Below are positions 1-9,584 of a stretch of DNA of 9,584 nucleotides, piece by piece; position 1 is the first letter of the stretch; every line of letters begins with the position of its first letter. The position numbers and the translations under genes are program-made. Source of the stretch: Chitinophagaceae bacterium (GTDB lineage Bacteria > Bacteroidota > Bacteroidia > Chitinophagales > Chitinophagaceae); NCBI GenBank assembly GCA_003456175.1, contig DMPB01000063.1, positions 1 through 9,584 of the forward strand. Reading direction: 5' to 3'. The notes beneath the pieces are model-generated. The model saw nothing but the letters and a program-made list of their open reading frames with translations. It had not been told where the DNA came from and did not search any database.

Positions 1-128
1 TTTGGGAGCACTCTTATTATTTGAAATACAAAAACAAACGGGCTGATTTTGTAGATGCAATGTTCAACATCATTAATTGGGACAATTCTTCCCAACGCCT
101 GGATGATGCAATAAAATTGACTAAATAA
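1..128 (+). CDS. Fe/Mn superoxide dismutase, C-terminal fragment (5' end outside window)
   Basis: Only the last 41 codons are inside the window, read in the frame starting at base 3 and ending at TAA 126-128. The translation opens with [20 protein letters not shown] and ends [19 protein letters not shown]. This is the C-terminal block of the iron/manganese superoxide dismutase family. The H of WEH is the last metal ligand; the preceding Asp ligand of the usual DVWEH motif lies just upstream of the window. The enzyme dismutates superoxide to oxygen and hydrogen peroxide, normally in the cytoplasm. Iron or manganese preference cannot be told from this fragment. The tail continues a little past the usual NW end, as in many Bacteroidota homologues. 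No intrinsic terminator is visible directly after the stop. The family call is secure. Confidence 0.93.
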
Positions 129-158
129 TCCAACCCAGCCAACACACAAGCACGGCTT

Positions 159-198
159 ATGCAGTGGCTAACACACAAAGACAACCCTTCCACTGCAT
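159..198. repeat. 9-bp hairpin
   Basis: ATGCAGTGG (159-167) and CCACTGCAT (190-198) are perfectly complementary around a 22-base loop, a short distance downstream of the superoxide dismutase stop codon. There is no T-run after it, so it does not look like an intrinsic terminator. It could be a transcript 3'-end stabiliser or part of the larger nested structure at 148-548. Confidence 0.5.
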
Positions 199-399
199 CT
201 ATGGTGTTGCCGCCATTTTTAACTGTCATACTTTTTGTGTGGTGTGTGCCAACGCATACAGCACATTGCTATCCTCATTCCGCTAAAGCTCCATTGCGGT
301 AGCAAAGAGCTGTGCCACCCTTCACACCAAACAAAAAGACGCTACACTCCAACCACCACCACCGTTTCGCTTATGCCAGTATAATAATTGGCGGAAGCT

Positions 400-505
400 A
401 CTTAAACATAATGTTGCCTTATGTGTTCGCTTCGCACAGCCTTTTGCTATCGCTTATGCAAGCATCCAACCGCACAGGCTGTCTCATAAGAACATTATGT
501 TAAGT
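400..505. repeat. long imperfect palindrome with bulges, attC-like in outline
   Basis: The left arm ACTTAAACATAATGTT (400-415) followed by gcCTTATG (416-423) pairs with CATAAG (485-490) and AACATTATGTTAAGT (491-505). The result is about 21 base pairs broken only by a single bulged A and a bulged GC. An inner 6-bp stem, ACAGCC (436-441)/GGCTGT (477-482), sits inside. The right end GTTAAGT fits the integron R' box GTTRRRY, and the left end is that box's complement with one extra A. There is no unpaired central spacer and no integrase or cassette gene next to it, so an integron site is only a resemblance. Confidence 0.55.
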
Positions 506-707
506 ATCCAACATCATAGCACTTTTTATCAAAAGTGAAGCCGTGCTTTTTGCCAACGCACCCCACCCGGAAAGCCACCACACCCCGCCACCCTTTCAGC
601 GGTGCAGAAAAAAATAAAGCATGATTAGTTTTATTGCCATGTGCTAAATAAAGTGTTCATTCTTTGCGTTCCATTCGTTTCGGCAGCTACCGCAAATTTG
701 CCTACAC

Positions 708-893
708 TCATTCCACTTCATTCATTTCACACATTATTTTAGCACCGCACAGCAAAAGCAATTCCTTCTCTGCATTCCGCAAAGCAAACACACAGGCTTT
801 CCGTGTCATGGCATCCCGATAGCTAAAGCACATAGCCAATGCACAATCGGGATTGCTCATGCCACTACAAGCCACCCATAGGTTTTGCTCCAC
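708..893 (-). pseudogene. possible remnant of a protein gene, unidentified
   Basis: A minus-strand frame beginning at a GTG (893) and ending at 708 gives 61 residues, including GMSNPDCALAMCFSYRDAM and the amphipathic stretch RKACVFALRNAEKELLLL. The alternation of charged and hydrophobic residues is more protein-like than the other short frames in this region. The WV...SNPD...A.....A pattern is faintly like domains of surface lipoproteins in which an Ala-rich helix follows a short strand. An in-frame stop lies a few codons upstream, so at best this is a fragment. The same bases form a nested hairpin (795-873), which could instead explain the pattern. I do not recognise a family. Confidence 0.2.
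795..873. repeat. nested imperfect hairpin
   Basis: The core arms ATCCCGAT (813-820) and ATCGGGAT (846-853) are perfectly complementary. Further out, CATG (807-810) pairs with CATG (858-861), GTG (803-805) with CAC (863-865), and GGCTT (795-799) with AAGCC (869-873), with small bulges between. No T-tract follows on either strand. It lies in the same gene-poor region as the other palindromes, and an ACCGCACA octamer sits 50 bases to its left. Confidence 0.45.
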
Positions 894-1086
894 TCCGTTC
901 AGTCATTGCCTTTGCTCTTAACCCACCGCACAATAGAAAATGGTATGCTTTATTTTTTCTGCGAAGTGTTTACCCCAACCAACCCACGAAAAAAAATCAC
1001 TATTTGATTGAATAATAAATGCAGTGAAATACAATCGGTAGAAAATAAATAAGGAAAAAAAATAAAAATAAAAAGTGCAGCAAAGT

Positions 1087-1236
1087 TAGGTGGCTGGCAC
1101 AAGTCCACGCTGATAAAAAAACCAAAAGACTACGGCATAATGAAAGGCAAATGGTCTGTTTATTTTTTATTGGTATTTGCCTTTCACCCTTCGGGACTTA
1201 TTCCGTTTCCTTTTGGTTTTTTTCCCACGCCACCTA
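1087..1236. repeat. structured repeat, copy A
   Basis: Three layers of pairing are visible. Outer arms: TAGGTGGC (1087-1094)/GCCACCTA (1229-1236). Middle arms: AAAAAAACCAAAAG (1115-1128)/CTTTTGGTTTTTTT (1210-1223), 14 perfect pairs, continued through small internal loops by ACGG/CCGT and ATAA/TTAT (to 1140/1198). Apical stem: TGAAAGGCAAAT (1141-1152)/ATTTGCCTTTCA (1175-1186), followed by a CCC-TTC-GGG mini-hairpin. The middle arms are identical to those of copy B; outer arms and apical part are not. A-run/stem/T-run geometry could make it a bidirectional terminator. The short hydrophobic open frames that cross it are by-products of its T-runs. Confidence 0.8.
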
Positions 1237-1347
1237 TGGGATTGCTTTCTTTTTTTTCTGTTTTTTTTCTTTGTTAAAATATTATGTGCGAAGCGTAGAG
1301 AAGCACAGGAAAGGACAAAAGCAGATACAAATTTTAAAGCAAGTATT

Positions 1348-1770
1348 ATGCAATGTCCAAAGGTTCACAGCTTCAATCAGAAAAATCAAACAAAGGATTT
1401 TGATTTATTCATTCTCTGTAAAGGTTTAAATAGTGGCAAACCACTTGAAAAGTCTTGCCCGAATTGTTTTGTAATCTCTTGCAAAAATTCTGATGAATTA
1501 GATTTTTATAAAACGCTTTGTTTCGGATTGTGGAAGGCAAGGCACTTTCAACAGTTCCTTGTCGGGTCAGTCATTCCTTTTTTACGGATAGATGATTTCA
1601 GGGCTACCATAAAGGCACAGGCGGATGAAGTTTCAAAAGATAAATACGCTTTTGTAAAAGATGTTCACAAAGTGAAGCTGATTGAAAGAAAGGAAAAGCA
1701 GATGAAGGAATATTTATTGCTCTTAGCAGATGTAAAAAGGGCAATGATTTACCGCCACTTAAAAAGGTAG
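1348..1770 (+). CDS. conserved Bacteroidota protein of unknown function (DUF6943-like)
   Basis: A 140-residue protein. The recognisable block begins around residue 16 (KDFDLFILCKGLNSGKPLEK) and continues through CPNCFVI (37-43), the aromatic segment FYKTLCFGLWKARHF (53-67) and GSVIPFLRIDDFR (73-85). A charged helical tail follows (about 105-140, with KLIERKEKQMKEY and a basic C-terminus). This matches my memory of a small family named DUF6943, seen in Bacteroidota accessory DNA; no function is known to me. I chose ATG 1348: the frame is open back to 1177, but that extension is encoded by the T-rich arm of repeat A and gives a spurious hydrophobic segment. No clear -7 promoter box precedes the gene. 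A hairpin overlaps the stop (AAAGGTAG 1763-1770/CTGCCTTT 1780-1787), and repeat B lies 64 bases downstream. The gene is the only one between the two repeat copies. Confidence 0.7.
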   Translation: MQCPKVHSFNQKNQTKDFDLFILCKGLNSGKPLEKSCPNCFVISCKNSDELDFYKTLCFGLWKARHFQQFLVGSVIPFLRIDDFRATIKAQADEVSKDKYAFVKDVHKVKLIERKEKQMKEYLLLLADVKRAMIYRHLKR

Positions 1771-1833
1771 TCCAAACGGCTGCCTTTAGCTGATGTCTTG
1801 CTTTTGCTCATTCAAAATTTAAGATGCAAAGTT

Positions 1834-1956
1834 AGCAAGGCGGGCAACCGCACAGACCCACACTAAAAAAACCAAAAGACTACGGCATAAACACAAAGCC
1901 ACCGCACAAGGCTATCATTTATTCCGTTTCCTTTTGGTTTTTTTATCCGCCTTGCT
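1834..1956. repeat. structured repeat, copy B
   Basis: Same architecture as the copy at 1087-1236. Middle arms AAAAAAACCAAAAG (1865-1878)/CTTTTGGTTTTTTT (1931-1944) and the adjoining ACTACGGCATAA (1879-1890) and TTATTCCGTTTC (1919-1930) are identical in both copies. Its outer arms are AGCAAGGCGG (1834-1843)/CCGCCTTGCT (1947-1956), perfectly complementary but different in sequence from copy A. Both copies have about 20 unpaired bases on the left and only 2-5 on the right between outer and middle arms. The loop is shorter than in A and lacks the apical stem. ACCGCACA occurs in the left spacer (1847) and in the loop (1901). Bidirectional terminator activity is plausible for the gene at 1348-1770. 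Confidence 0.8.
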
Positions 1957-2230
1957 GAGAGGAGCATCTAAATTTTTTCATTATGCAAAAGCATCCACGT
2001 ATTTCAGCAGGCAGCCACTCCGGCATTTGTCCTTTCACTTCAGTTGCTCTTTCATCGTTTGTTCCTGTTTCCCGTTTCGGGTATCAGCGTTACATCCGCA
2101 GGGCTTCTTTCAATTGGTGTCCTTCGCCTGGCATCAGGGTTTATAATCTTCCATGCGGTTGCTGCTTGTGGGTTCATTCCACTGGTCAGCGTTTCCTTTC
2201 AGCTTTGCCCTTTTAGGGCATTGCTGAAAA
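1957..2230. other. gap with no supported gene
   Basis: About 270 bases between repeat B and the terminator of the minus-strand gene. Several open frames cross it on the plus strand, but their translations are rich in Cys, Trp, Ser and Arg, have no domain pattern, and start in unrelated places. One small hairpin is visible (TGCCC 2207-2211/GGGCA 2217-2221, extended by CAGC/GCTG). I see no promoter or RNA gene. Confidence 0.5.
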
Positions 2231-2231
2231 A

Positions 2232-2258
2232 GAAAAAGCCCCACCAAACTGGTGAGGC
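2232..2258 (-). terminator. intrinsic terminator of the 249-residue protein gene
   Basis: Read on the minus strand, GCCTCACCA-GTT-TGGTGGGGC forms a 9-bp stem (one U-G wobble) with a 3-base loop (2238-2258). It is followed at once by CTTTTT and a further T-run. On the plus strand the same stem has a C-A mismatch and no T-run, so the terminator belongs to the minus-strand gene ending at 2288, about 30 bases upstream. Confidence 0.9.
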
Positions 2259-2287
2259 ATTTTCCTAACTGAAAGAAAGAACAACTT

Positions 2288-3037
2288 TTACGCAGCTTCA
2301 ACGATGTTGAGGACGTTGTAAGCACCATTTTTTAAGGAGTACTGAACCCCGTTTACTTCCTGAAAGAACTCAATCAACATCAGGTAGAACTTAGTTCCTG
2401 CACCAGCAGGAACAGCAGCGGGTGTGAGTGTAACAGGTGTGTTTGTGCCATCAATAGGCAGGTTTGTTACAGGGCTGTATTCAATCGCACTGGTTCCATT
2501 CGCAAAGTCCACAACCGCATAAGCTGATTTCAAACTGATATGCGTTGACCCAGAAGGGTAAGCAATATCGTTGATAGGAACAAATGCAGGAAGGTTGATT
2601 GCACCAGTTGCACCAGTTACTGTAAACGGAGCAAACAACACACCACCCAAAGCTGCATTATCGTTGAAGTCAAAATCCTTCAACAGTGCCAACGCAACAG
2701 GGTCAGCAATACCGATTGCAACAGTACGTTCACCCCTTGCAGAAGTGGTGTCGTAGTTTTTAATCTGTGTCATGATTTGAGTTAAGCGGCTGGTAACACG
2801 GCTATCAGCAGCGTTCATCATCAAATTACGGACAGCATTGCGAAGCAATTTGCCAGCAGTTGCAGAGCTTCCAAACTCAGCACCGTTTTCACGGGTACGC
2901 TGGAAATTCGGATCATTTGCAATTCGTTCAGCGGATACACCACCTTTGGTTTTTACCAAGTGGCCATCTTGTGTTTTGTAGAAGGTCAGTTCATCCAGAG
3001 TGCCTTCGATTTTTAAAATACCTTTAAGTTTTGCCAT
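2288..3037 (-). CDS. conserved Bacteroidota protein of unknown function, 249 residues
   Basis: I recognise the type but no named function. Its N-terminus, MAKLKGILKIEGTLDELTFY followed by KTQDGHLVKTKGGV (21-34) and RIANDPNFQRTRENGAEFG (38-56), is the hallmark of a protein seen in many Bacteroidota genomes only as hypothetical. Residues 60-95 look helical (GKLLRNAVRNLMM, SRLTQIMTQIK). The C-terminal half (105-249) is strand-rich and Gly/Ala/Thr-rich and ends in YLMLIEFFQEVNGVQYSLKN and NVLNIVEAA. No signal peptide, transmembrane segment or catalytic motif is visible, so it is probably a soluble structural or binding protein. The gene is a complete single transcription unit, with a near-consensus promoter upstream, a strong terminator downstream, and a divergent partner gene at 3251. 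A phage-derived structural origin is possible but unsupported. Confidence 0.85.
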   Translation of the reverse strand: MAKLKGILKIEGTLDELTFYKTQDGHLVKTKGGVSAERIANDPNFQRTRENGAEFGSSATAGKLLRNAVRNLMMNAADSRVTSRLTQIMTQIKNYDTTSARGERTVAIGIADPVALALLKDFDFNDNAALGGVLFAPFTVTGATGAINLPAFVPINDIAYPSGSTHISLKSAYAVVDFANGTSAIEYSPVTNLPIDGTNTPVTLTPAAVPAGAGTKFYLMLIEFFQEVNGVQYSLKNGAYNVLNIVEAA

Positions 3038-3077
3038 TGTCTAAACTTTTTATGGATTAGTAAATCTGTTTCGTTTT

Positions 3078-3095
3078 ATGCTGCTTTATCAGCAT
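3078..3095 (-). other. hairpin at the transcript start of the 249-residue protein gene
   Basis: ATGCTG (3078-3083) and CAGCAT (3090-3095) form a 6-bp stem with a 6-base loop, placed within a few bases of the expected transcription start of the minus-strand promoter at 3103-3134. At this position it could be a 5' mRNA-stabilising hairpin or a palindromic operator overlapping +1. Confidence 0.45.
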
Positions 3096-3102
3096 TTGAA
3101 AA

Positions 3103-3134
3103 CAAAAGTAGAAGCACTATAAAGGCTCTGCAAA
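3103..3134 (-). promoter_or_regulatory. Bacteroidota sigma-ABfr type promoter for the gene ending at 2288
   Basis: On the minus strand, TTTG (3134-3131) is followed by 20 bases and then TACTTTTG (3110-3103). This matches the Bacteroidota consensus TTTG-N19-21-TAnnTTTG exactly in both boxes and in spacing. It predicts a start near 3099 and a leader of about 60 bases before the ATG at 3037. Confidence 0.85.
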
Positions 3135-3184
3135 TGTGCAAAGTCATCCGTTCCGTTTATTCCGCATTATTCCAACAAACACAC

Positions 3185-3215
3185 TTTTACCGCCTATGAA
3201 AAACATTTATCTTTG
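3185..3215 (+). promoter_or_regulatory. promoter for the small plus-strand gene at 3251
   Basis: TATCTTTG at 3208-3215 is a perfect TAnnTTTG -7 box. TTTT at 3185-3188, 19 bases upstream, is a fair -33 box. The start is predicted near 3219. It faces away from the minus-strand promoter at 3103-3134. Between the two lies a run of TTCC units about 9-10 bases apart (3151, 3160, 3170), which could bind a regulator. Confidence 0.65.
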
Positions 3216-3250
3216 CAATATCACTTTCATACTTAAAGCATAGCATCGGT

Positions 3251-3472
3251 ATGGATAGTGTATTAAGTTGTATAATTGAAATAATGAATAGACTGTGCAT
3301 TTATCCTAAGGACATTCAGGTAATCACAGGCAGAAGCGACAGGTATGGAAGAAACCTCATCAAGAAGATTAAAGACCACTTCAAGAAGCAGCAACACCAG
3401 GTTGTTACTGTTGATGAGTTTTGCCAGTACATGGGCTTGCAACCGGAAACGGTTGCCAAGCAACTCAGGTAA
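3251..3472 (+). CDS. small HTH-like Bacteroidota protein, function unknown
   Basis: Up to 73 residues from ATG 3251, or 62 from the in-frame ATG 3284. I favour the latter because MNRLCIYPKDIQVITGRSDR is where homologues I remember begin, though the promoter at 3185-3215 allows both starts. Residues 20-46 (KDIQVITGRSDRYGRNLIKKIKDHF) have the shape of a helix-turn-helix with a basic recognition helix. VTVDEFCQYMGL (52-63) reads like a second short helical unit of the kind found in excisionase-like and AlpA-like small DNA-binding proteins. No catalytic residues are seen. It is transcribed divergently from the 249-residue protein gene across 213 bases, the classical placement of a regulator beside its target, which is an inference from layout. 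It is not close enough to any named family for a firm call. Confidence 0.65.
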   Translation: MDSVLSCIIEIMNRLCIYPKDIQVITGRSDRYGRNLIKKIKDHFKKQQHQVVTVDEFCQYMGLQPETVAKQLR

Positions 3473-3482
3473 GTAGAAATCT

Positions 3483-3490
3483 TATCTTTG
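3483..3490 (+). promoter_or_regulatory. candidate -7 box upstream of the membrane ATPase gene
   Basis: TATCTTTG fits TAnnTTTG, but no TTTG lies 19-21 bases upstream. If used, it would give the ATPase gene at 3671 a leader of about 175 bases. That leader contains two small stems (GTGC-TATT-GCAC, and AGACA-CCTTTGT-TGTCT near 3570-3590). A second, weaker box (AATTTTTG at 3635-3642) lies closer to the start codon. Confidence 0.4.
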
Positions 3491-3670
3491 CTTTTGCTGA
3501 TGATAAGGCACAGCACACCCTACAGCTAACAACATTTTTTCCTTTCTTTGTTGTGCTATTGCACTTGTTTTAGACACCTTTGTTGTCTATTTGTTGCCCA
3601 ATCTCTGTAAGTGCCTGATAGTAAGGAAGACTACAATTTTTGTATCGGAAAGTAACCACCCTCTCTAATA

Positions 3671-4720
3671 ATGCGAATAACAGCTAAATATCTTTTACAG
3701 CAAATCAAGGCCGATTTAATCGGGAAAGATGCACATAGAGGTGTAACACTTACCTATGCTTGGCTAGCCAATCAATTTGGGCATTTTGCACTTGGCTTTA
3801 TTCCTACTTTTATTCTTAATCGCATCTTCATTTACTGTAAAGTACAACACCCTGCGAGTTGGGCTGCAACAATCATTTATGCATTTTGGCTACTGTTTGA
3901 AATATACAATCTACTAGCGCCAATTCTCTTAAAAAAATCAACTGGAAAACTAAAGTTAAACCGCACGGGTAAATATACGTTCAAGCCTGCATGGAAGCAT
4001 ATCTTTTTCGATACTTCAACCGATATTGTTTTCTTCTGGATAGGCACCACTGCTTGTTTAGCACTTCTTAACAACTATACCAATAGCTTTTGGATACTAT
4101 TGTTGTTAGTAACGTTGCTGTTGCTTGTAGCGTATCCTAGCGTATATTGGTATCGCAACAAACTGTACTTACAGGTAGCTCAGTTCCCTTTTCAACTGCG
4201 TTTAAGTCAATGGCATTTTCCGATTGCACCTGAACATAAACATACAGTTAATCAATTTTTACAACGTACTACAAAAGGGAATGTATTACTTGTTTTTGGC
4301 CATGCTAACAGCGGACGAACAAGTTTAGCAGTTGCTATCGCCACAGAACTTGCTATTCAAGAACAGCTTGCACATTATACTACCTACATCAAATGGCAAG
4401 AACGCATCAACCAAGCCGAGAATGTTGCAACATCAACCTTACAACAGTGGCGGAATGCTAACGTGCTAGTGGTAGATGATATCAATGCCGATACTACATA
4501 TCAACCAACACTTCACACAGCGCAAAGTTTCTATGAAATTTTGCAACGGAGCATGTATGCAGAGCAAAATAAGTTAGCGTTGCAACAATGTAATTCTATC
4601 TGGGTAATAGGCACCACTAATGGAAGCAGCGAAGAATGGCAGCAAATGTTCAATAAACTTTTAGGCACTCAAATTACCATTGAAATAATAACGCTAAATA
4701 CTAATACGAATCAAAGATAA
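3671..4720 (+). CDS. membrane-anchored P-loop ATPase (AAA/STAND-like) with Arg in Walker A
   Basis: A 349-residue protein of unknown role in two halves. The N-terminal half has about four hydrophobic segments (roughly 31-55, 64-87, 115-134 and 139-156), so it should sit in the inner membrane. The C-terminal half (about 185-345) is a small nucleotide-binding domain. GHANSGRTS (210-218) is a Walker A loop with Arg216 where Lys is expected, NVLVVDD (264-270) is a Walker B strand, and IWVIGTTN (310-317) sits where sensor 1 would be. The core resembles IstB/DnaA-style ATPases in GxxxxGxTSLA and VLVVDDI. Lys-to-Arg in Walker A usually weakens hydrolysis, so it may bind nucleotide as a switch. No peptidase, nuclease or TIR domain is attached. 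The sensor kinase gene follows after 59 bases on the same strand, so the two are probably co-transcribed and may work together. Confidence 0.7.
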   Translation: MRITAKYLLQQIKADLIGKDAHRGVTLTYAWLANQFGHFALGFIPTFILNRIFIYCKVQHPASWAATIIYAFWLLFEIYNLLAPILLKKSTGKLKLNRTGKYTFKPAWKHIFFDTSTDIVFFWIGTTACLALLNNYTNSFWILLLLVTLLLLVAYPSVYWYRNKLYLQVAQFPFQLRLSQWHFPIAPEHKHTVNQFLQRTTKGNVLLVFGHANSGRTSLAVAIATELAIQEQLAHYTTYIKWQERINQAENVATSTLQQWRNANVLVVDDINADTTYQPTLHTAQSFYEILQRSMYAEQNKLALQQCNSIWVIGTTNGSSEEWQQMFNKLLGTQITIEIITLNTNTNQR

Positions 4721-4733
4721 AGTTGTAACTTGC

Positions 4734-4752
4734 TAACATAGCTCGTATGTTA
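4734..4752. promoter_or_regulatory. 7-bp palindrome between the ATPase and kinase genes
   Basis: TAACATA (4734-4740) and TATGTTA (4746-4752) are perfect inverted arms around GCTCG, 28 bases before the kinase start codon. No T-run follows, so it is not an intrinsic terminator. It could be an operator or an mRNA hairpin that sets the relative expression of the two genes. Confidence 0.45.
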
Positions 4753-4779
4753 TTGTAGCAGAACCTAATTCGAAGCTGT

Positions 4780-5739
4780 ATGGAATTAAACATAGTTTTT
4801 ATAGAAGACGATATACATTACACGCTGCAATTAAAAAAGCAGCTTTCAGACTATCAGTATCCATTTCCACTTCAAATCGTTACAACTAGCCTTGAATTCA
4901 ACAATATTGTATCAAAGAAAAAAGCCGATATTGTTATCATCAGCGATAACACTAATGCCATTAGTCCAATTGAAGCATTGGTAATGCTTAAGCAATACAA
5001 GCAACAACCCATAATTATTTTCATTAATAATATTTACGAACAACAACAGCAATTACAACTCTTAAAAAGCAGTATTTCTTGCACCATTCATCGTTCCGAT
5101 ATTGCGTTCATTGCACAAACCATACAGCAACAAACCAAAGCAGTTCTCAATGAAAAACAACTCAGAGCTTTACAATTAAAGTTCAATACCATTATCAATG
5201 TTGCTAACGATGTAATTGTTTCTATTGACAACAATGGGCAAATCATCGCAGCAAATCCATCATTTTGTAATTTAATGCACCTTGCGGTAAATGAACTCCG
5301 CAATACCAGCATCGTTCATTGTTTTGAAGATGTAAGTGATTGGAACTCGCTTTACAATGCAATACAAGCGCAGCAGAGCTTTACAAGCACCTTAAAAAAT
5401 GCAGCATCAAAGCCCACATGGATAGAGTGGAATGTAACTTTTACAGAAGATGAAATTTTCTTATTTGGTCGAAATATTACGGAACGTAAAGAGGTAGAAG
5501 AAGTATTACGTATCAGTGAAGAAAGATTCCGTTCACTCGTACATAACATATCTGATATTATTACCTTAATAGATGCTAACGGTGTTATTCAATATCAAAG
5601 TGCGTCTCTAAAACAAATCATGGGTTACAACGAAAATGAGCTAAAAGGCAAAACCATTTTCGAGATCATACACCCCGATGATTTACCACCTGTGTTAGCA
5701 AACTTTAAAGAACTAGTTACAAAAGGTGGTAGTGGCTAA
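4780..5739 (+). CDS. receiver-PAS sensor protein, N-terminal part of an interrupted histidine kinase
   Basis: 319 residues up to TAA 5737-5739; the same frame continues to 6588 as the rest of one kinase. Residues 1-120 look like a response-regulator receiver: VFIEDD (6-11) carries the acidic pair, and IVIISDN (51-57) carries a likely phospho-acceptor Asp56. The usual Thr/Ser is Asn (83), and the usual Lys is replaced in TIHRSD (102-107), so it is degenerate. A first PAS domain spans about 132-237 (VIVSIDNNGQIIAANPSFC, ending FGRNITERKEVEE, the PAC end). A second PAS starts at about 245 (SEERFRSLVHNISDIITLID) with the typical MGYNENELKG and IHPDD motifs. The frame stops at KGGSG, in the middle of that second PAS, which is not a natural domain boundary. 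No transmembrane segment is present, so it is cytoplasmic. On its own the product would have no kinase activity. Confidence 0.85.
   Translation: MELNIVFIEDDIHYTLQLKKQLSDYQYPFPLQIVTTSLEFNNIVSKKKADIVIISDNTNAISPIEALVMLKQYKQQPIIIFINNIYEQQQQLQLLKSSISCTIHRSDIAFIAQTIQQQTKAVLNEKQLRALQLKFNTIINVANDVIVSIDNNGQIIAANPSFCNLMHLAVNELRNTSIVHCFEDVSDWNSLYNAIQAQQSFTSTLKNAASKPTWIEWNVTFTEDEIFLFGRNITERKEVEEVLRISEERFRSLVHNISDIITLIDANGVIQYQSASLKQIMGYNENELKGKTIFEIIHPDDLPPVLANFKELVTKGGSG
5737..5739 (+). other. in-frame TAA that splits one kinase gene in two
   Basis: The frame before the stop ends ...ELVTKGGSG. The frame after it resumes with no shift as EATFRLLNKDGSYIYLEANG, exactly the second half of the same PAS domain. 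Removing or replacing this single codon restores one 602-codon receiver-PAS-PAS-kinase gene (4780-6588). The codon is one base away from CAA, GAA or AAA. Options are a nonsense mutation, a recoded stop, or a sequencing or assembly error. Confidence 0.9.
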
Positions 5740-6588
5740 GAAGCTACATTTAGACTATTGAATAAAGACGGCAGTTACATCTATCTAGAAGCGAATGGCA
5801 GCAATCAACTGAATAATCCCGCTATTAATGCAATAGTGATTAACTCCAGAGAAATTACGCAGCGCAAAAGAGCAGAAGAAGAAAAAACGCGACTCATTGC
5901 GGAACTTTCACAAAACAACAAAGAACTCAAGCAATTCTCTTACATTACGTCACACAACTTACGTGCCCCTGTTACCAACCTTATTGCACTACTCGGCTTA
6001 ATAGATCAAGAACCAATTGATAACGATAATCTTAAAACATTGCTAGCAGGTTTTAAAACCAGCACCATACAACTCAATCAAACCCTAAACGACTTAATTA
6101 ATATTCTCATCATCAAAGAGAATATACACCAAGAGAAAACACATATTAACTTCAAAGATGTTTTCGAAAGTGTTAAAAACAACCTCCAGCAGTTAATAGA
6201 GCAAAGTAATGCTAGCATCACCGATAATCTTGATACATTACCCAGAATACCATTTATACTCCCTTACATAGAAAGTATTTTTCTAAACCTGCTCACGAAT
6301 GCACTAAAATACAAACAACCCAATTGTACACCAATCATCAGGGTAACTGCTACTATTGCACACCATACCGCTACTATTCACGTTGCCGATAATGGCTTAG
6401 GTATGGATATGGCAAAAGTAAAAGACCGCATTTTTGGATTATACCAACGTTTTCACAACCACCCCGATAGTAAAGGAATTGGCCTTTATTTGGTGCAAGC
6501 GCAGATGCATGCTATGGGCGGCAGCATTAGTGTAGAAAGCATTCCCAATGTTGGCACAACATTCACACTCAGCTTCCCCTTAGAGTAA
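5740..6588 (+). CDS. PAS-histidine kinase, C-terminal part of the interrupted gene
   Basis: An open frame directly after TAA 5737-5739, with no ATG near its beginning; the first possible start is TTG 5758. Counting from that TTG, residues 1-45 complete the second PAS domain and its PAC end (REITQRKRAEEE). Residues 50-120 are the dimerisation domain with phospho-acceptor His66 in SHNLRAP. The HATPase domain follows: N box LNLLTNALKYK (176-186), G1 box DNGLGMD (211-217), F box IFGLYQRF (225-232) and G2 box KGIGLYLV (239-246). All catalytic boxes are intact, which argues for recent interruption or for continued use. The protein autophosphorylates on His and passes phosphate to a receiver; the only receiver nearby is its own degenerate N-terminal one, so the true partner is elsewhere. 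The 3' end overlaps the convergent radC gene by 9 bases. Confidence 0.85.
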   Translation, partial: EATFRLLNKDGSYIYLEANGSNQLNNPAINAIVINSREITQRKRAEEEKTRLIAELSQNNKELKQFSYITSHNLRAPVTNLIALLGLIDQEPIDNDNLKTLLAGFKTSTIQLNQTLNDLINILIIKENIHQEKTHINFKDVFESVKNNLQQLIEQSNASITDNLDTLPRIPFILPYIESIFLNLLTNALKYKQPNCTPIIRVTATIAHHTATIHVADNGLGMDMAKVKDRIFGLYQRFHNHPDSKGIGLYLVQAQMHAMGGSISVESIPNVGTTFTLSFPLE

Positions 6589-7263
6589 GCCTTCATCGGC
6601 AAAGCTAAAGTAACCTCTTTCAGATACTATGATATGATCGGCAACAGTAATATCCATGAACAAGGCTGCTTGTTTTACCTTTTCCGTCAATTGCTTATCT
6701 GCACGGCTTGGCTGTAAGCCACCACTCGGATGATTATGACAAAGTATGATACAAGTAGCATTGTTCGTAAGTGCGTTTTTTAAAATAATACGTGGATCTG
6801 CAACTGTACCTGTTATACCACCTACACTTAACTCTTCATAATGCAGCACAAAATTGGCTTGATTCATATAAATTACTGCAAACACCTCATTGGTTTTATG
6901 CTGTAGCTTGGCTTTTAAATAAGCTGCTGCATCTTTCGAACAAGTGATATGCGTTTTTTTATGTTCAGCCAATTCTCGGCGAGTTGCCAAAGCTAATGCC
7001 GCCACAATGGCAACTGCTTTCGCAGGACCTATCCCCTTAATCTTCAATTGCAGTATTTCTTTTACCGTAAGGCGACTTAAGGTACTCAAGCTACCTTGTA
7101 CTGCGTGCAACAATGCACGACAAACATCTACCGCACTCTGCTCTGTAGTTCCATTATTAATAAGAATCGCTAACAACTCGGCATCACTTAATGCATCTAC
7201 CCCCTTTAGCAATAGTTTCTCTCTCGGACGATCATCTTCATTCCAAAGCTTAATAGCACTCAT
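6580..7263 (-). CDS. radC: RadC family JAB/MPN+ domain protein
   Basis: A complete 227-residue protein, the normal length for the family. The N-terminus (IKLWNEDDRPREKLLLKG, 4-21) and a helix-hairpin-helix segment with IKGIGPAKA (75-83) precede the MPN+ domain. Catalytic-type residues are present: Glu126 in NEVFAV, and the JAMM motif HNHPSGGLQPSRAD (176-189) with His176, His178, Ser180 and Asp189, which bind zinc in this fold. Historically named a DNA repair protein, RadC has no settled biochemical function, and the repair role in E. coli was later attributed to another gene. Start ATG 7263 fits the family. It is convergent with the kinase (9-bp overlap of the ends, no terminator between) and divergent from prs across 109 bases that contain a palindrome. 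Confidence 0.97.
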   Translation of the reverse strand: MSAIKLWNEDDRPREKLLLKGVDALSDAELLAILINNGTTEQSAVDVCRALLHAVQGSLSTLSRLTVKEILQLKIKGIGPAKAVAIVAALALATRRELAEHKKTHITCSKDAAAYLKAKLQHKTNEVFAVIYMNQANFVLHYEELSVGGITGTVADPRIILKNALTNNATCIILCHNHPSGGLQPSRADKQLTEKVKQAALFMDITVADHIIVSERGYFSFADEGLL

Positions 7264-7300
7264 TAAAGTATTTTTTTCGTAATATAATAATAAAAAATAC

Positions 7301-7330
7301 TTCGCAAATAATATTTACTGTACTTGCGAA
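7301..7330. promoter_or_regulatory. palindrome in the radC-prs divergent region
   Basis: TTCGCAA (7301-7307) and TTGCGAA (7324-7330) are perfect inverted arms with a 16-base spacer, giving a 23-base repeat distance, about two helical turns. The placement between two divergent genes suits a dimeric regulator controlling radC, prs or both. No clear TAnnTTTG box for radC is visible here. Confidence 0.45.
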
Positions 7331-7343
7331 AGTGGGCATTGGT

Positions 7344-7351
7344 TATCTTCG
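7344..7351 (+). promoter_or_regulatory. candidate -7 box for prs
   Basis: TATCTTCG differs by one base from TAnnTTTG and ends 21 bases before the prs ATG. CTTG at 7323-7326 is a possible -33 box, but the spacing of 17 is short of the usual 19-21. The start is predicted near 7355, with a short leader. Confidence 0.45.
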
Positions 7352-7372
7352 CGACACATTTCACCACATTTT

Positions 7373-8323
7373 ATGAACCCATCTGTTAAAATTTTCTCAG
7401 GCACGGGCTCGCAACAACTGGCAGAAAAAATTGCCAAACGCTTCGGTGCCAAGCTCGGGAAAGTCAATATCCAAAAGTTTAGCGATGGTGAGTTTCAGCC
7501 CATTTTCATGGAAAGTATTAGAGGCGATTATGTGTTTCTTGTTCAAAGCACATTCGCCCCTACAGACAATCTGATGGAGTTGCTACTCATGATCGACGCA
7601 GCCAAAAGAGCAAGTGCTTACAAAGTAATTGCTGTAATTCCTTATTACGGTTTTGCCCGTCAAGATCGAAAAGATAAGCCACGCGTAGCTATTGGCAGTA
7701 AGCTTGTAGCTACCCTTCTAGAAGCAGCAGGTGCCGACAGGGTAATTACCATGGACCTCCATGCACCACAAATACAAGCATTTTTCGATGTGCCGGTCGA
7801 CCACCTCGATAGCTCTGCAATTTTTATCCCTTATATCGAACAGCTAAAACTCAAAAACCTTACCTTTGCGGCCCCCGACGTTGGAAGTACCAACCGCGTA
7901 AGGGAAATTGCGAGTTATTTCAATGCCGAAATGGTGATTTGCGACAAGCACCGTAAGCGTGCCAACGAAATAGCAAGCATGGTAGTAATTGGCGATGTTC
8001 AAGGAAAAGATATTGTGTTGATTGACGACATCTGCGATACTGCCGGAACACTAACAAAGGCTGCTGCCCTCTTGAAAGAGAAAGGCGCCACCTCTGTTAG
8101 AGCTCTTTGTACACACCCAATTTTAAGTGGTAAGGCTTACGAAAATGTAGCCAACAGTGTTTTAGAAGAACTTATCGTTTGTGATACTATTCCGCTAAAA
8201 CAAGAAACACCTAAAATACGAGTGATTTCGGTAGCCGACCTTTTTGCTATTGCCATTCGCAACGCAGCCGAAAACAAGAGCATTACCAGCTTATTCATTC
8301 ACAGTCAACTGCGGAACCGATAA
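7373..8323 (+). CDS. prs: ribose-phosphate pyrophosphokinase (PRPP synthetase)
   Basis: A 316-residue protein of normal class I length. It transfers pyrophosphate from ATP to ribose 5-phosphate, making PRPP for purine, pyrimidine, histidine, tryptophan and NAD synthesis in the cytoplasm. Visible motifs: N-terminal KIFSGTGSQQLAEKIA (6-21), the FSDGE motif (36-40), the ATP-binding YYGFARQDRKDKPRVAIGSK region (91-110), MDLHAPQIQAFFD (127-139), the flexible-loop basic residues DKHRKR (191-196), and the PRPP-binding loop VLIDDICDTAGT (215-226) with the paired Asp218/Asp219. PDVG is followed by STNR rather than the more common GAKR, a modest lineage variation. The start is supported by the conserved N-terminus directly after a promoter-like box. 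rplY follows after 32 bases without a terminator, the common bacterial prs-rplY arrangement. Confidence 0.98.
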   Translation: MNPSVKIFSGTGSQQLAEKIAKRFGAKLGKVNIQKFSDGEFQPIFMESIRGDYVFLVQSTFAPTDNLMELLLMIDAAKRASAYKVIAVIPYYGFARQDRKDKPRVAIGSKLVATLLEAAGADRVITMDLHAPQIQAFFDVPVDHLDSSAIFIPYIEQLKLKNLTFAAPDVGSTNRVREIASYFNAEMVICDKHRKRANEIASMVVIGDVQGKDIVLIDDICDTAGTLTKAAALLKEKGATSVRALCTHPILSGKAYENVANSVLEELIVCDTIPLKQETPKIRVISVADLFAIAIRNAAENKSITSLFIHSQLRNR

Positions 8324-8355
8324 GCTAAAAAGTGAATTTTAAACCATCATAAACA

Positions 8356-8946
8356 ATGAAAACAGTAAACATCGAGGGTGTCTTGAGGACCGAATTCGGC
8401 AAGAAAGCCACTAGCGTAATTCGCTCTCAAGAAAATGTGCCTGGTGTAATTTATGGCGGCAGCGGCGAAATTAATTTCCACGCTTCAGCTAAAGCTTTCA
8501 AGCCACTAGTGTACACTGCCGATTTCCAAATTGCGGAAGTAAGTGTTAACGGTAAATCTTACCGTTGCATCTTAAAGGAAATGCAGTTCGATAAAGTGAG
8601 CGACCAGCTTATTCACGTTGACTTACTTGAACTAGTACCTGGCAAAAAGTTAATTGCCAACCTACCATTAAAGTTTGTAGGTACCTCTGCCGGTCAGAAA
8701 GAAGGTGGTAAGCTTATCACTAAAATGAAGAGCCTTAAAGTAAAAGTTGCTCCAGAACATTTAGTAGAAGCTATTGAGGTAGATTTAACACCATTGCAAT
8801 TGAACGGTAACATTCGTGTGCAAGACATTCCAACTCCAAATATGGAAGTAATGAACAGCCCTCGTATACCAGTTGCTTCAGTAGTAATGACACGTCAGCT
8901 ACGCCAAGCCGAAGCAGAAAGTGCTAAGGATGCTAAGAAAAAGTAA
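8356..8946 (+). CDS. rplY: 50S ribosomal protein bL25, Ctc form
   Basis: A 196-residue protein, the long two-domain form. Residues 1-90 are the 5S rRNA-binding L25 domain (N-terminal VNIEGVLRTEFGKKATSVIR, then VPGVIYGG at 28-35, and KSYRCILKEMQFDKVSDQLIHVD at 67-89). Residues 95-180 are the beta-rich C-terminal domain of Ctc/TL5 proteins (KKLIANLPLKFVG, LKVKVAPEHLVEAIEVD, and NIRVQDIP). A lysine/alanine-rich tail (AESAKDAKKK) ends the chain, usual in Bacteroidota. It sits in the large subunit bound to 5S rRNA; the long form is linked to stress responses in other bacteria. It is the second gene of the prs operon, and transcription should end at the strong terminator 22 bases after the stop. 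Confidence 0.97.
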   Translation: MKTVNIEGVLRTEFGKKATSVIRSQENVPGVIYGGSGEINFHASAKAFKPLVYTADFQIAEVSVNGKSYRCILKEMQFDKVSDQLIHVDLLELVPGKKLIANLPLKFVGTSAGQKEGGKLITKMKSLKVKVAPEHLVEAIEVDLTPLQLNGNIRVQDIPTPNMEVMNSPRIPVASVVMTRQLRQAEAESAKDAKKK

Positions 8947-8968
8947 TGGTTACCTAACCATATCAAAA

Positions 8969-8994
8969 GCACCGCAATTGCGGTGTTTTTTTTT
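8969..8994 (+). terminator. intrinsic terminator of the prs-rplY operon
   Basis: CACCGC (8970-8975), loop AATT, and GCGGTG (8980-8985) form a GC-rich 6-bp stem. If the AATT also pairs, the whole is a perfect 16-base palindrome. Nine T residues follow (8986-8994). An A-run of four precedes it, so weak function on the minus strand is possible, but the plus-strand form is clearly better. Confidence 0.95.
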
Positions 8995-9047
8995 ACCTCG
9001 TACCTTACGGTAAATATTGACCGCCAACAGCACCAATTACGAAACCT

Positions 9048-9055
9048 TACCTTTG
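9048..9055 (+). promoter_or_regulatory. -7 promoter box almost touching the start of the methyltransferase gene
   Basis: TACCTTTG is a perfect TAnnTTTG box and ends only 7 bases before ATG 9063. With the usual position of this box, transcription would start at about 9059-9062, leaving a leader of 0-4 bases. No TTTG lies 19-21 bases upstream, so the -33 contact would be weak. Confidence 0.65.
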
Positions 9056-9062
9056 CAGCCTT

Positions 9063-9584
9063 ATGACACAAGTGTATTTAAAGCGAAAAATTGCCCAACG
9101 CATTGCCAACGGACATCCTTGGATTTTCGCCAATGAAGTAGAAAAAATAAAGGGCAACCCACAACCCGGCGAAACGGTAGATGTATTTTATGCCGATGGC
9201 AAATATTGTGGTCGTGGTTATATTAATACCCAATCGCAAATCATGGTTCGCTTACTTACACGCAAGCAAGAAACCATTGATAACAACTTCTTTTATCAAC
9301 GCATTGCTAAAGCTTGGGCATATCGGCAAAGCATTGGCTATACCGAAAACTGCCGACTCATTTTCGGCGAAGCCGACGATATGCCAGCACTCATCATTGA
9401 CAAATTCAACGATTACTTTGTATTACAAACCCTTAGCTACGGTATGGATGCATGGAAGCCAGCCATTGTAGCTGCATTGCAACAACTATTTCAACCCAAA
9501 GGCATTTATGAACGCAACGATGTACCCGTTCGTGAACTGGAGGGCATGCAGCAGCAAAAAGGATTTTTAAGTGAACCGTTTGAT
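9063..9584 (+). CDS. rlmI: RlmI-like class I SAM-dependent 23S rRNA methyltransferase (3' end outside window)
   Basis: 174 codons are visible from ATG 9063 with no stop to the window end; family members are about 390 residues, so roughly the N-terminal 45% is here. The start MTQVYLKRKIAQRIANGHPW and IFANEVEKIKG (21-31), with GETVDVFYADGKYCGRGYIN (36-55), form the N-terminal PUA-type RNA-binding domain. FGEADDMPALIIDKFNDYFV (101-120), with YERNDVPVRELEGM (149-162), is the characteristic linker and fold of the RlmI (YccW) group, which methylates a cytosine of 23S rRNA. The Rossmann SAM-binding loop lies beyond the window, so activity cannot be confirmed here. It is separated from rplY by a strong terminator and has its own -7 box immediately before the ATG. 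The family is certain, the exact target base less so. Confidence 0.9.
   Translation, partial: MTQVYLKRKIAQRIANGHPWIFANEVEKIKGNPQPGETVDVFYADGKYCGRGYINTQSQIMVRLLTRKQETIDNNFFYQRIAKAWAYRQSIGYTENCRLIFGEADDMPALIIDKFNDYFVLQTLSYGMDAWKPAIVAALQQLFQPKGIYERNDVPVRELEGMQQQKGFLSEPFD

Follow-up and report, generated by a model that had tools for sequence, protein, structure and literature searches.

Two folded repeats in a Chitinophagaceae mobile element are predicted single-stranded-DNA promoters with Bacteroidota boxes

What do two similar folded repeats do on either side of a single gene? The question is raised by a 9,584-nt stretch of DNA from a Chitinophagaceae bacterium (GCA_003456175.1, contig DMPB01000063.1, positions 1 to 9,584, forward strand), referred to here in its whole length as the window. 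Copy A has outer arms at 1087-1094 and 1229-1236 (TAGGTGGC/GCCACCTA) and middle arms at 1115-1128 and 1210-1223, leaving 20 bases unpaired on the left (1095-1114) and 5 on the right (1224-1228). The corresponding arms of copy B lie at 1834-1843 and 1947-1956 (AGCAAGGCGG/CCGCCTTGCT) and at 1865-1878 and 1931-1944, with 21 unpaired bases on the left (1844-1864) and 2 on the right. A preliminary description of the locus had reported these arms and unpaired bases, and both the sequence and the folding bear it out: as plus-strand RNA, copies A and B fold far below dinucleotide shuffles (z -4.4 and z -6.9, respectively), as does copy B when treated as minus-strand DNA (z -5.6), and each time 0 of 200 shuffles was as good. 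Its view that structure rather than sequence is under selection also holds, as the outer stems change together between the copies and across genomes. The single gene that it placed between the repeats (1348-1770, plus strand) encodes a 140-aa protein of the DUF6943 family (PF22105, E 2.8e-44). In the source genome, neither blastn with hairpin A nor a scan with the core pattern returned copies beyond A and B.

Two features of the locus had been overlooked. The sequence CAAAGTTA is common to the left bases of both outer arms (1081-1088 in A, 1827-1834 in B), and a second conserved ORF (1983-2216, plus strand) begins 27 nt to the right of hairpin B. Read on the minus strand, CAAAGTTA becomes TAACTTTG, which fits the -7 box TAnnTTTG of Bacteroidota promoters, described as occurring together with a -33 TTTG at a variable spacer length (PMC7366714). 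This -7 box has since been refined to TAHHTTTG, with transcription starting 4-5 nt beyond it and with a -33 box that is weak (PMC6847099). Each of our hairpins also carries a minus-strand TTTG in its inner stem, at 1123-1126 in A and 1873-1876 in B. Along the DNA, the -33 and -7 boxes are 34 nt (A) and 38 nt (B) apart. Folding of the minus strand sets aside the left loop of 20-21 nt, and on the opposite (template) arm the distance is 19 nt in both hairpins (1216-1234 in A, 1937-1955 in B). The same stretch of DNA offers an internal yardstick. The ordinary double-stranded promoter of a 249-aa gene (3103-3134, minus strand) reads TTTG-N20-TACTTTTG, and the -7 box TATCTTTG of a 73-aa gene (3208-3215, plus strand) has a TTTT 19 nt upstream (TTTT-N19-TATCTTTG). 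The 249-aa/DUF6266 family was represented by 13 genes, of which 6 carry such a box with its TTG at 20; the other 7, one of them with a misplaced start (L035), do not. The template spacing of the hairpins and the ordinary promoters of the element follow the same ruler.

Since the box spacing matches that of ordinary promoters only in the folded strand, the hairpins likely switch genes on while their DNA is single-stranded. A precedent exists in Frpo of the F plasmid and the Frpo-like sites of ColIb-P9, where a single strand folds into a stem that rebuilds two promoter boxes (PMC9849209, PMC11541004). We consider it probable that both repeats are Frpo-like single-stranded-DNA promoters with Bacteroidota boxes that fire into the gene on their right; on this prediction, which draws on fold and sequence, hairpin A (1081-1241, minus strand) would serve DUF6943 and hairpin B (1827-1968, minus strand) the 77-aa ORF at 1983-2216. 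The minus strand of the element, present as single-stranded DNA perhaps in a recipient after transfer, would fold into the hairpin, its 3' arm providing the non-template boxes TTTG and TAnnTTTG and its 5' arm the template, the -7 box lying in an unpaired bubble. With the left loop of about 20 nt looped out, the boxes would come to lie 19-20 positions apart. RNA polymerase would then begin at the hairpin base and copy the minus strand rightward, and the product would be sense RNA for DUF6943 (hairpin A) or for the 77-aa ORF (hairpin B). Synthesis of the second strand would abolish the hairpin and leave the boxes 34-38 nt apart, so that the promoter would be off; the other genes of the element would use ordinary promoters. 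What we infer here is transcription from the proposed promoters, its timing, the route of transfer and the function of the proteins.

The observations from which this reading is built concern the structure and its covariation, the conservation and spacing of the boxes, the strand bias, the position before ORFs, and the recurrence of hairpins with their cores ahead of ssb, ArdA and PcfK genes. A detector based on minimum-energy DNA folds called 47 unique strong hairpins at CAAAnnTA, the -7 box read on the opposite strand, in 64 loci. By text match, 34 of the 47 were upstream of DUF6943 or the 77-aa ORF, and spacing was not used in this choice; for L032+903 the assignment to DUF6943 came from a 560-nt search range, and a small ORF lies closer; the 13 hairpins dropped include two with fitting spacing (L057-1978 and L080-770). 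The spacing was counted in 20 non-redundant hairpins, with cut-offs of an energy below -30 and an outer stem of at least 5. In these, the template-arm spacing of a paired TTG is 19 in 10 and 20 in 7, so that 17 of 20 fit, at linear spacings of 20 to 39; the full set has 29 fitting hairpins among its 34. The misfits count against the promoter reading: they are L033+257, L071-2368 and L079+1220 among the 20 (by minimum-energy fold), joined by L055-1218 and L058+907 in the full set. When all paired TTGs between 9 and 44 positions are considered, 17 of 26 fall at 19 or 20, for which uniform chance gives 9e-16; the rows are related by descent, so this figure is no true probability and the 20 hairpins are not independent trials. 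Dinucleotide shuffles of the same 452,564 bases, scanned with a box pattern that excluded C at nn and was therefore slightly narrower than that of the real scan, produced 8 strong hairpins, none with a spacing of 19-20. The nn positions vary among the hairpins, with G on the promoter strand in 1 of 20, a side-match that overlaps another hairpin; G is reported to be virtually absent at these positions of the Bacteroidota -7 box (PMC6847099). The detector flagged no such hairpin in some DUF6943 loci. It flagged none in L119-L124 either, and this counts against the promoter reading.

The hairpins keep close company with the genes that they would serve. They lie 54-129 nt upstream of DUF6943 in 17 of 18 copies and 21-29 nt upstream of the 77-aa ORF, with 27-28 nt in 9 of 11 copies. 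The DUF6943 exception is L071, at 331 nt and with a small ORF between; on the minus strand of this locus, a hairpin at 981-1167 is followed by a 64-aa ORF (SymE-like by eye) and then by DUF6943. No TAHHTTTG was found on the gene strand between hairpin and ATG in 33 of 33 gaps (3349 b). The pair A/B encloses DUF6943 also in L027, L028 and L030.

Searches with the sequence cores of the hairpins led to other genes. When one mismatch was tolerated, core 1 (CAAAAGACTACGGCATAA) gave 24 hits, spread over 18 of 295 genomes of the class; 8 of the hits are loci already collected and 16 were examined here. It stands before SSB or DUF932 genes at five places (L134, L139, L141 and L142, and L146 with DUF932 alone), and at one further place (L131/L152) it precedes a pair of genes, the second of which encodes a T4SS coupling protein. 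Within the 16 loci, seven rows have the -7 box, one being a duplicate of L065. The hairpins that keep CAAAnnTA have template spacings of 20, 19, 18, 21, 21 and 22 and, in the same order, linear spacings of 35, 35, 31, 25, 61 and 52; the outer stem of L137 is weak, and L136 has G at nn. It counts against the promoter reading that 9 of the 16 loci are without an intact -7 box and that, among the five ssb/DUF932 copies, only L134 has one.

Core 2, AATCTCCACCC-N4-GGGTAGTATT with one mismatch, was found at 9 places in 6 of the 295 genomes. The first recognised gene behind it is SSB (L114, L118), PcfK (L111, L112, L116), ArdA (L110) or DUF6943 (L113); at one place (L115/L124) an unrecognised gene is followed by ArdC, and L117 has no ORF of at least 55 aa. 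The core is also present in 17 loci of the viral collection, two of them before ArdC-N-like genes (one match lies below its cut-off). This viral-collection type is reversed, with template spacings of 15-26 and linear spacings of 18-22 (9 hairpins called in the 17 loci, some of them near-duplicates, and 7 loci without a called hairpin), so that these hairpins could by sequence be plain leftward promoters. Five of the 9 core-2 genome places share their contig with a PF03432 relaxase, at a distance of 16-24 kb, and a TrwC relaxase is near L124. By genome, 5 of 6 with core 2 have a PF03432 relaxase and the sixth, G288, is without. Of the seven genomes with DUF6943 islands, G288 among them, one has a relaxase of PF03432, the only family searched, which counts against the promoter reading. 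In L120-L123, tra-like genes (named by eye) lie between the hairpin block and the relaxase, so that early entry is conjectural. Besides conjugation, single strands would also be supplied by natural transformation or by a helper element. Judging from these gene matches, the genes behind hairpins that share these cores include ssb, DUF932, PcfK, ArdA and ArdC types, several of them in predicted conjugative elements. This gene company is that of Frpo in enterobacterial plasmids as described in PMC9849209 and PMC11541004.

Which strand folds bears on the nature of the active molecule. With DNA parameters, the minus strand is the stabler one in 33 of 33 hairpins (one of the 34 was left out as too short), and G.T pairs make up 85 of 1735 pairs on the minus strand versus 16 of 1651 on the plus. 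Base composition accounts for part of this preference: the strand difference averages -1.56 kcal/mol in shuffles and -3.59 kcal/mol in the real hairpins, 19 of 19 non-redundant ones favouring minus (group z -5.4; L071-2368 omitted by hand). The preference is less marked in the core-2 set, where 17 of 20 hairpins favour minus (z -2.4; six near-duplicate loci omitted). Under RNA parameters, the two strands of hairpins A and B are close in stability, and copy A of L041 prefers plus. The consensus fold of hairpin B over nine homologues contains compensatory changes at 4 of 45 pairs, including the outermost (G-C to T-A), and three G.T pairs of the minus strand, which on the plus strand would be A.C, are kept in 9 of 9 homologues. 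The covariation term of this consensus is slightly unfavourable (+0.69 kcal/mol) because of broken pairs.

These data bear on four other explanations. The hairpins might be single-strand initiation sites that load RNA polymerase only to make a primer for the second strand, their place before genes being incidental. A folded strand with boxes suits this idea equally well, and Frpo itself is reported to prime DNA synthesis too (PMC10085688). We nevertheless consider it unlikely, given that the hairpins stand just upstream of ORFs in the transcribed sense and at the distances given above (27-28 nt for the 77-aa ORF, 54-129 nt for DUF6943), that two of them occur within one 3.5-kb element, and that the gaps between hairpin and ATG hold no other promoter box. 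Less probable still is a structured leader or attenuator in the plus-strand RNA of DUF6943 and the 77-aa ORF. The upstream position and the covarying stems agree with such a leader, and on its plus strand copy A has a CCC-UUCG-GGG loop, with a T-rich tract to its right. An RNA leader of the downstream gene would, however, be plus-strand; the minus strand folds better and gathers the G.T pairs, which speaks against it, and TAnnTTTG and the constant template spacing would be left unexplained. Rfam gave no match at E<=1 at either hairpin of the window and, in eight relatives, none at the gathering score on a hairpin, the sole overlapping match (L033) being at chance level. With these results and the favoured minus strand, we do not assign the hairpins to the riboswitches or other Rfam leaders.

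We give little credence to an ordinary leftward promoter decorated by a hairpin and regulated as a cruciform. TAnnTTTG does point left, and the viral-collection hairpins have a suitable linear spacing of 18-22; in the window, however, that spacing is 34 (A) and 38 (B), transcription from B would run antisense to DUF6943, the ORFs available to the left of A are all on the minus strand and merely 61 and 70 aa long, and in L027 a convergent gene would be faced. The preliminary description had itself offered a gene cassette with structured recombination sites or a pair of bidirectional terminators, and two similar folded sites flanking one gene do invite such a comparison. It is the least credible of the four. 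The borders of the element are elsewhere, near 124 and 3654; L027, L028 and L030 have the same gene between the pair; the element holds no integrase-sized ORF; and hairpins of this kind stand before ssb in other loci. Membership among integron gene cassettes was rejected on the borders, the constant gene and the missing integrase. Terminators would leave unexplained the promoter box at the hairpin base, the distance of 27-28 nt in 9 of 11 copies and the better folding of the non-coding strand. Copy A with its T-rich tract precedes a gene, and copy B follows DUF6943 yet holds its distance to the next ORF.

The predicted single-stranded promoters share features with several known systems. In 17 of 20 hairpins, the viral-collection type aside, both boxes lie in the stem of a folded strand at functional spacing, as in Frpo1 and Frpo2, and the same cores precede early genes (SSB, DUF932, PcfK, ArdA, ArdC-N), the two genes of the window being DUF6943 and the 77-aa ORF. 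Frpo2 is located upstream of ssbF in the F plasmid (PMC9849209). Unlike Frpo, the hairpins of the window carry TTTG and TAnnTTTG rather than TTGACA and TATAAT, a distinction drawn on the boxes; a large one-sided loop sets their spacing, their hosts are Bacteroidota, and they also occur in an integrase-less element. Since the sigma-70 boxes TTGACA and TATAAT are not found, the hairpins are predicted to work like Frpo and are not filed as a member by sequence. The complementary-strand origin of M13 is a hairpin of single-stranded DNA recognised by host RNA polymerase, as is predicted for the window; it differs in belonging to a phage, in having sigma-70 boxes and in yielding a primer only. The attC sites of integrons are likewise folded single strands with unpaired bases and a structure conserved over sequence. 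Unlike these, the hairpins of the window are not at the borders of their element, which is without an integron integrase ORF.

The element that holds both hairpins spans 124-3654. We retrieved five loci from genome contigs via DUF6943 and compared them by blastn. In Lacibacter cauensis (L028, 2711-6307), the whole of 124-3654 is shared at 91.6%, and the match to L031 has the same left border. Identities of 75-90%, reaching roughly the same right end, were found for L027 (a Ferruginibacter MAG), L029 and L030; these contigs start inside the element, so they bear on the right border only. The hairpins thus appear, from these alignments, to lie inside an element common to other Chitinophagaceae and not at its borders. 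A small non-autonomous element had been among the suggestions of the preliminary description: such an element exists, with borders near 124 and 3654 and not at the hairpins as had been supposed. Neither the ORF list nor Pfam revealed an integrase-sized ORF or a site-specific recombinase in 124-3654. An integrative element moved by its own recombinase was rejected on the same grounds, although larger relatives have one: in L083 and L089, an Arm-DNA-bind_5 tyrosine recombinase lies beside the 249-aa-type/DUF6943 module, which the element of the window shares with these Bacteroidota integrative elements while being without their integrase. In L085, type I restriction genes are carried as cargo. 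No empty site was found, the gene to the right of the element having no DNA orthologue in 18 relatives, and mobility therefore rests on a shared unit with different flanks. The plasmid and phage collections contained no DNA match to the element, and plasmids no DUF6943 at E<=0.001.

The order within the element is a structured non-coding region, hairpin A, DUF6943, hairpin B, the 77-aa ORF, the 249-aa gene on the minus strand and the 73-aa gene. The non-coding region (124-993) is conserved at 68-84% identity in other elements and folds to -157 kcal/mol on the minus strand (shuffled -110, sd 4.6) and -136 kcal/mol on the plus (shuffled -87, sd 4.4; 20 shuffles). It contains many long inverted repeats and is some 48 kcal/mol stabler than shuffles on either strand. 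An origin of transfer is one possibility for its role, and a large structured molecule is another. In L027, an extra cargo gene of 199 aa, read from a TTG and with no Pfam match (634-1233), is inserted between the structured region and hairpin A, in the place of 993-1064 of the window, a cargo slot. At the right end, a motif of the form TTGTATcGGraAGTA (TTGTATCGGAAAGTA in the window, 3640-3654) is found in the window and in L027, L028, L029, L030, L032, L060, L061, L077 and L084, preceded in several elements by TTTGTTG-type repeats, and probably serves as an attachment site. In L084 the motif is present twice, at a distance of 6.3 kb.

Of the proteins encoded, DUF6943 has 438 relatives at E<=0.001 out of 448 candidates. 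Its AlphaFold2 model (pLDDT 84) has no match in the PDB at E<=0.001, and the fold of a restriction enzyme or specificity subunit, suggested by top matches at E 0.08-0.3, was not counted as evidence. The single-contig genome G288 has four DUF6943 copies, and G144 has two inverted copies 3.7 kb apart. There is moderate evidence that the 77-aa ORF, which ends in LSALPF, is coding: an alignment of 10 homologues has 1326 of 2997 differences (44%) at third codon positions, and 546 codons changed synonymously versus 1242 non-synonymously. The 249-aa protein (MAKLKG..., 2288-3037, minus strand) has no Pfam match of its own and a poor structure model (pLDDT 58). It aligns with DUF6266 proteins of related elements, which match PF19781 and are present in several DUF6943 elements. 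The product of the 73-aa gene (3251-3472, plus strand) is at most excisionase-like, by a non-significant match to the Cox-like phrog_575 (E 0.043).

Single-stranded promoters as a kind are known; what is new in those proposed here is the boxes, the spacing set by a bulge, the host group and a carrier without an integrase. For a few enterobacterial plasmids, genes are known to be expressed early from single strands as these arrive (PMC9849209), and searches for anti-defence genes are now guided by single-stranded promoters (PMC11541004). The main text of PMC11541004 has no occurrence of 'bacteroid'. A literature search that covered few subscription papers, with its hits judged by their listings, found no paper on single-stranded promoters in Bacteroidota and nothing on DUF6943 or DUF6266. 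The primary sigma factor of Bacteroidota differs, so searches for Frpo by sequence would miss their versions. On balance, we lean towards a broader proposal: Bacteroidota may own an independently built class of single-stranded-DNA promoters, found in conjugative elements before ssb, DUF932, PcfK, ArdA and ArdC and in integrase-less satellites before DUF6943 and the 77-aa ORF. The looped-out bulge would act as a strand-state switch, on only in the folded single strand and silent in the duplex, and DUF6943 would be an early-establishment, probably anti-defence, protein. The predicted rule, namely TAnnTTTG at the base, TTG in the stem and 19-20 nt on the template arm of a folded non-coding strand, would permit a genome-wide promoter search in a group that is dominant among the bacteria of gut and soil, and would draw attention to uncharacterised establishment genes like DUF6943. 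The hairpins also lend themselves to a clean physical test of the way in which RNA polymerase gauges the distance between boxes when the strand is folded.

Two further observations concern the surroundings of the element. The RNA family Flavo-1 occurs just to its left in L039 (281-350, 62.1 bits) and, below the gathering score, in L028 (2550-2614, 39.8 bits). To the right of the element, a stop near 5738 divides a PAS/histidine kinase coding region (4780-6588 of the window) into two ORFs.
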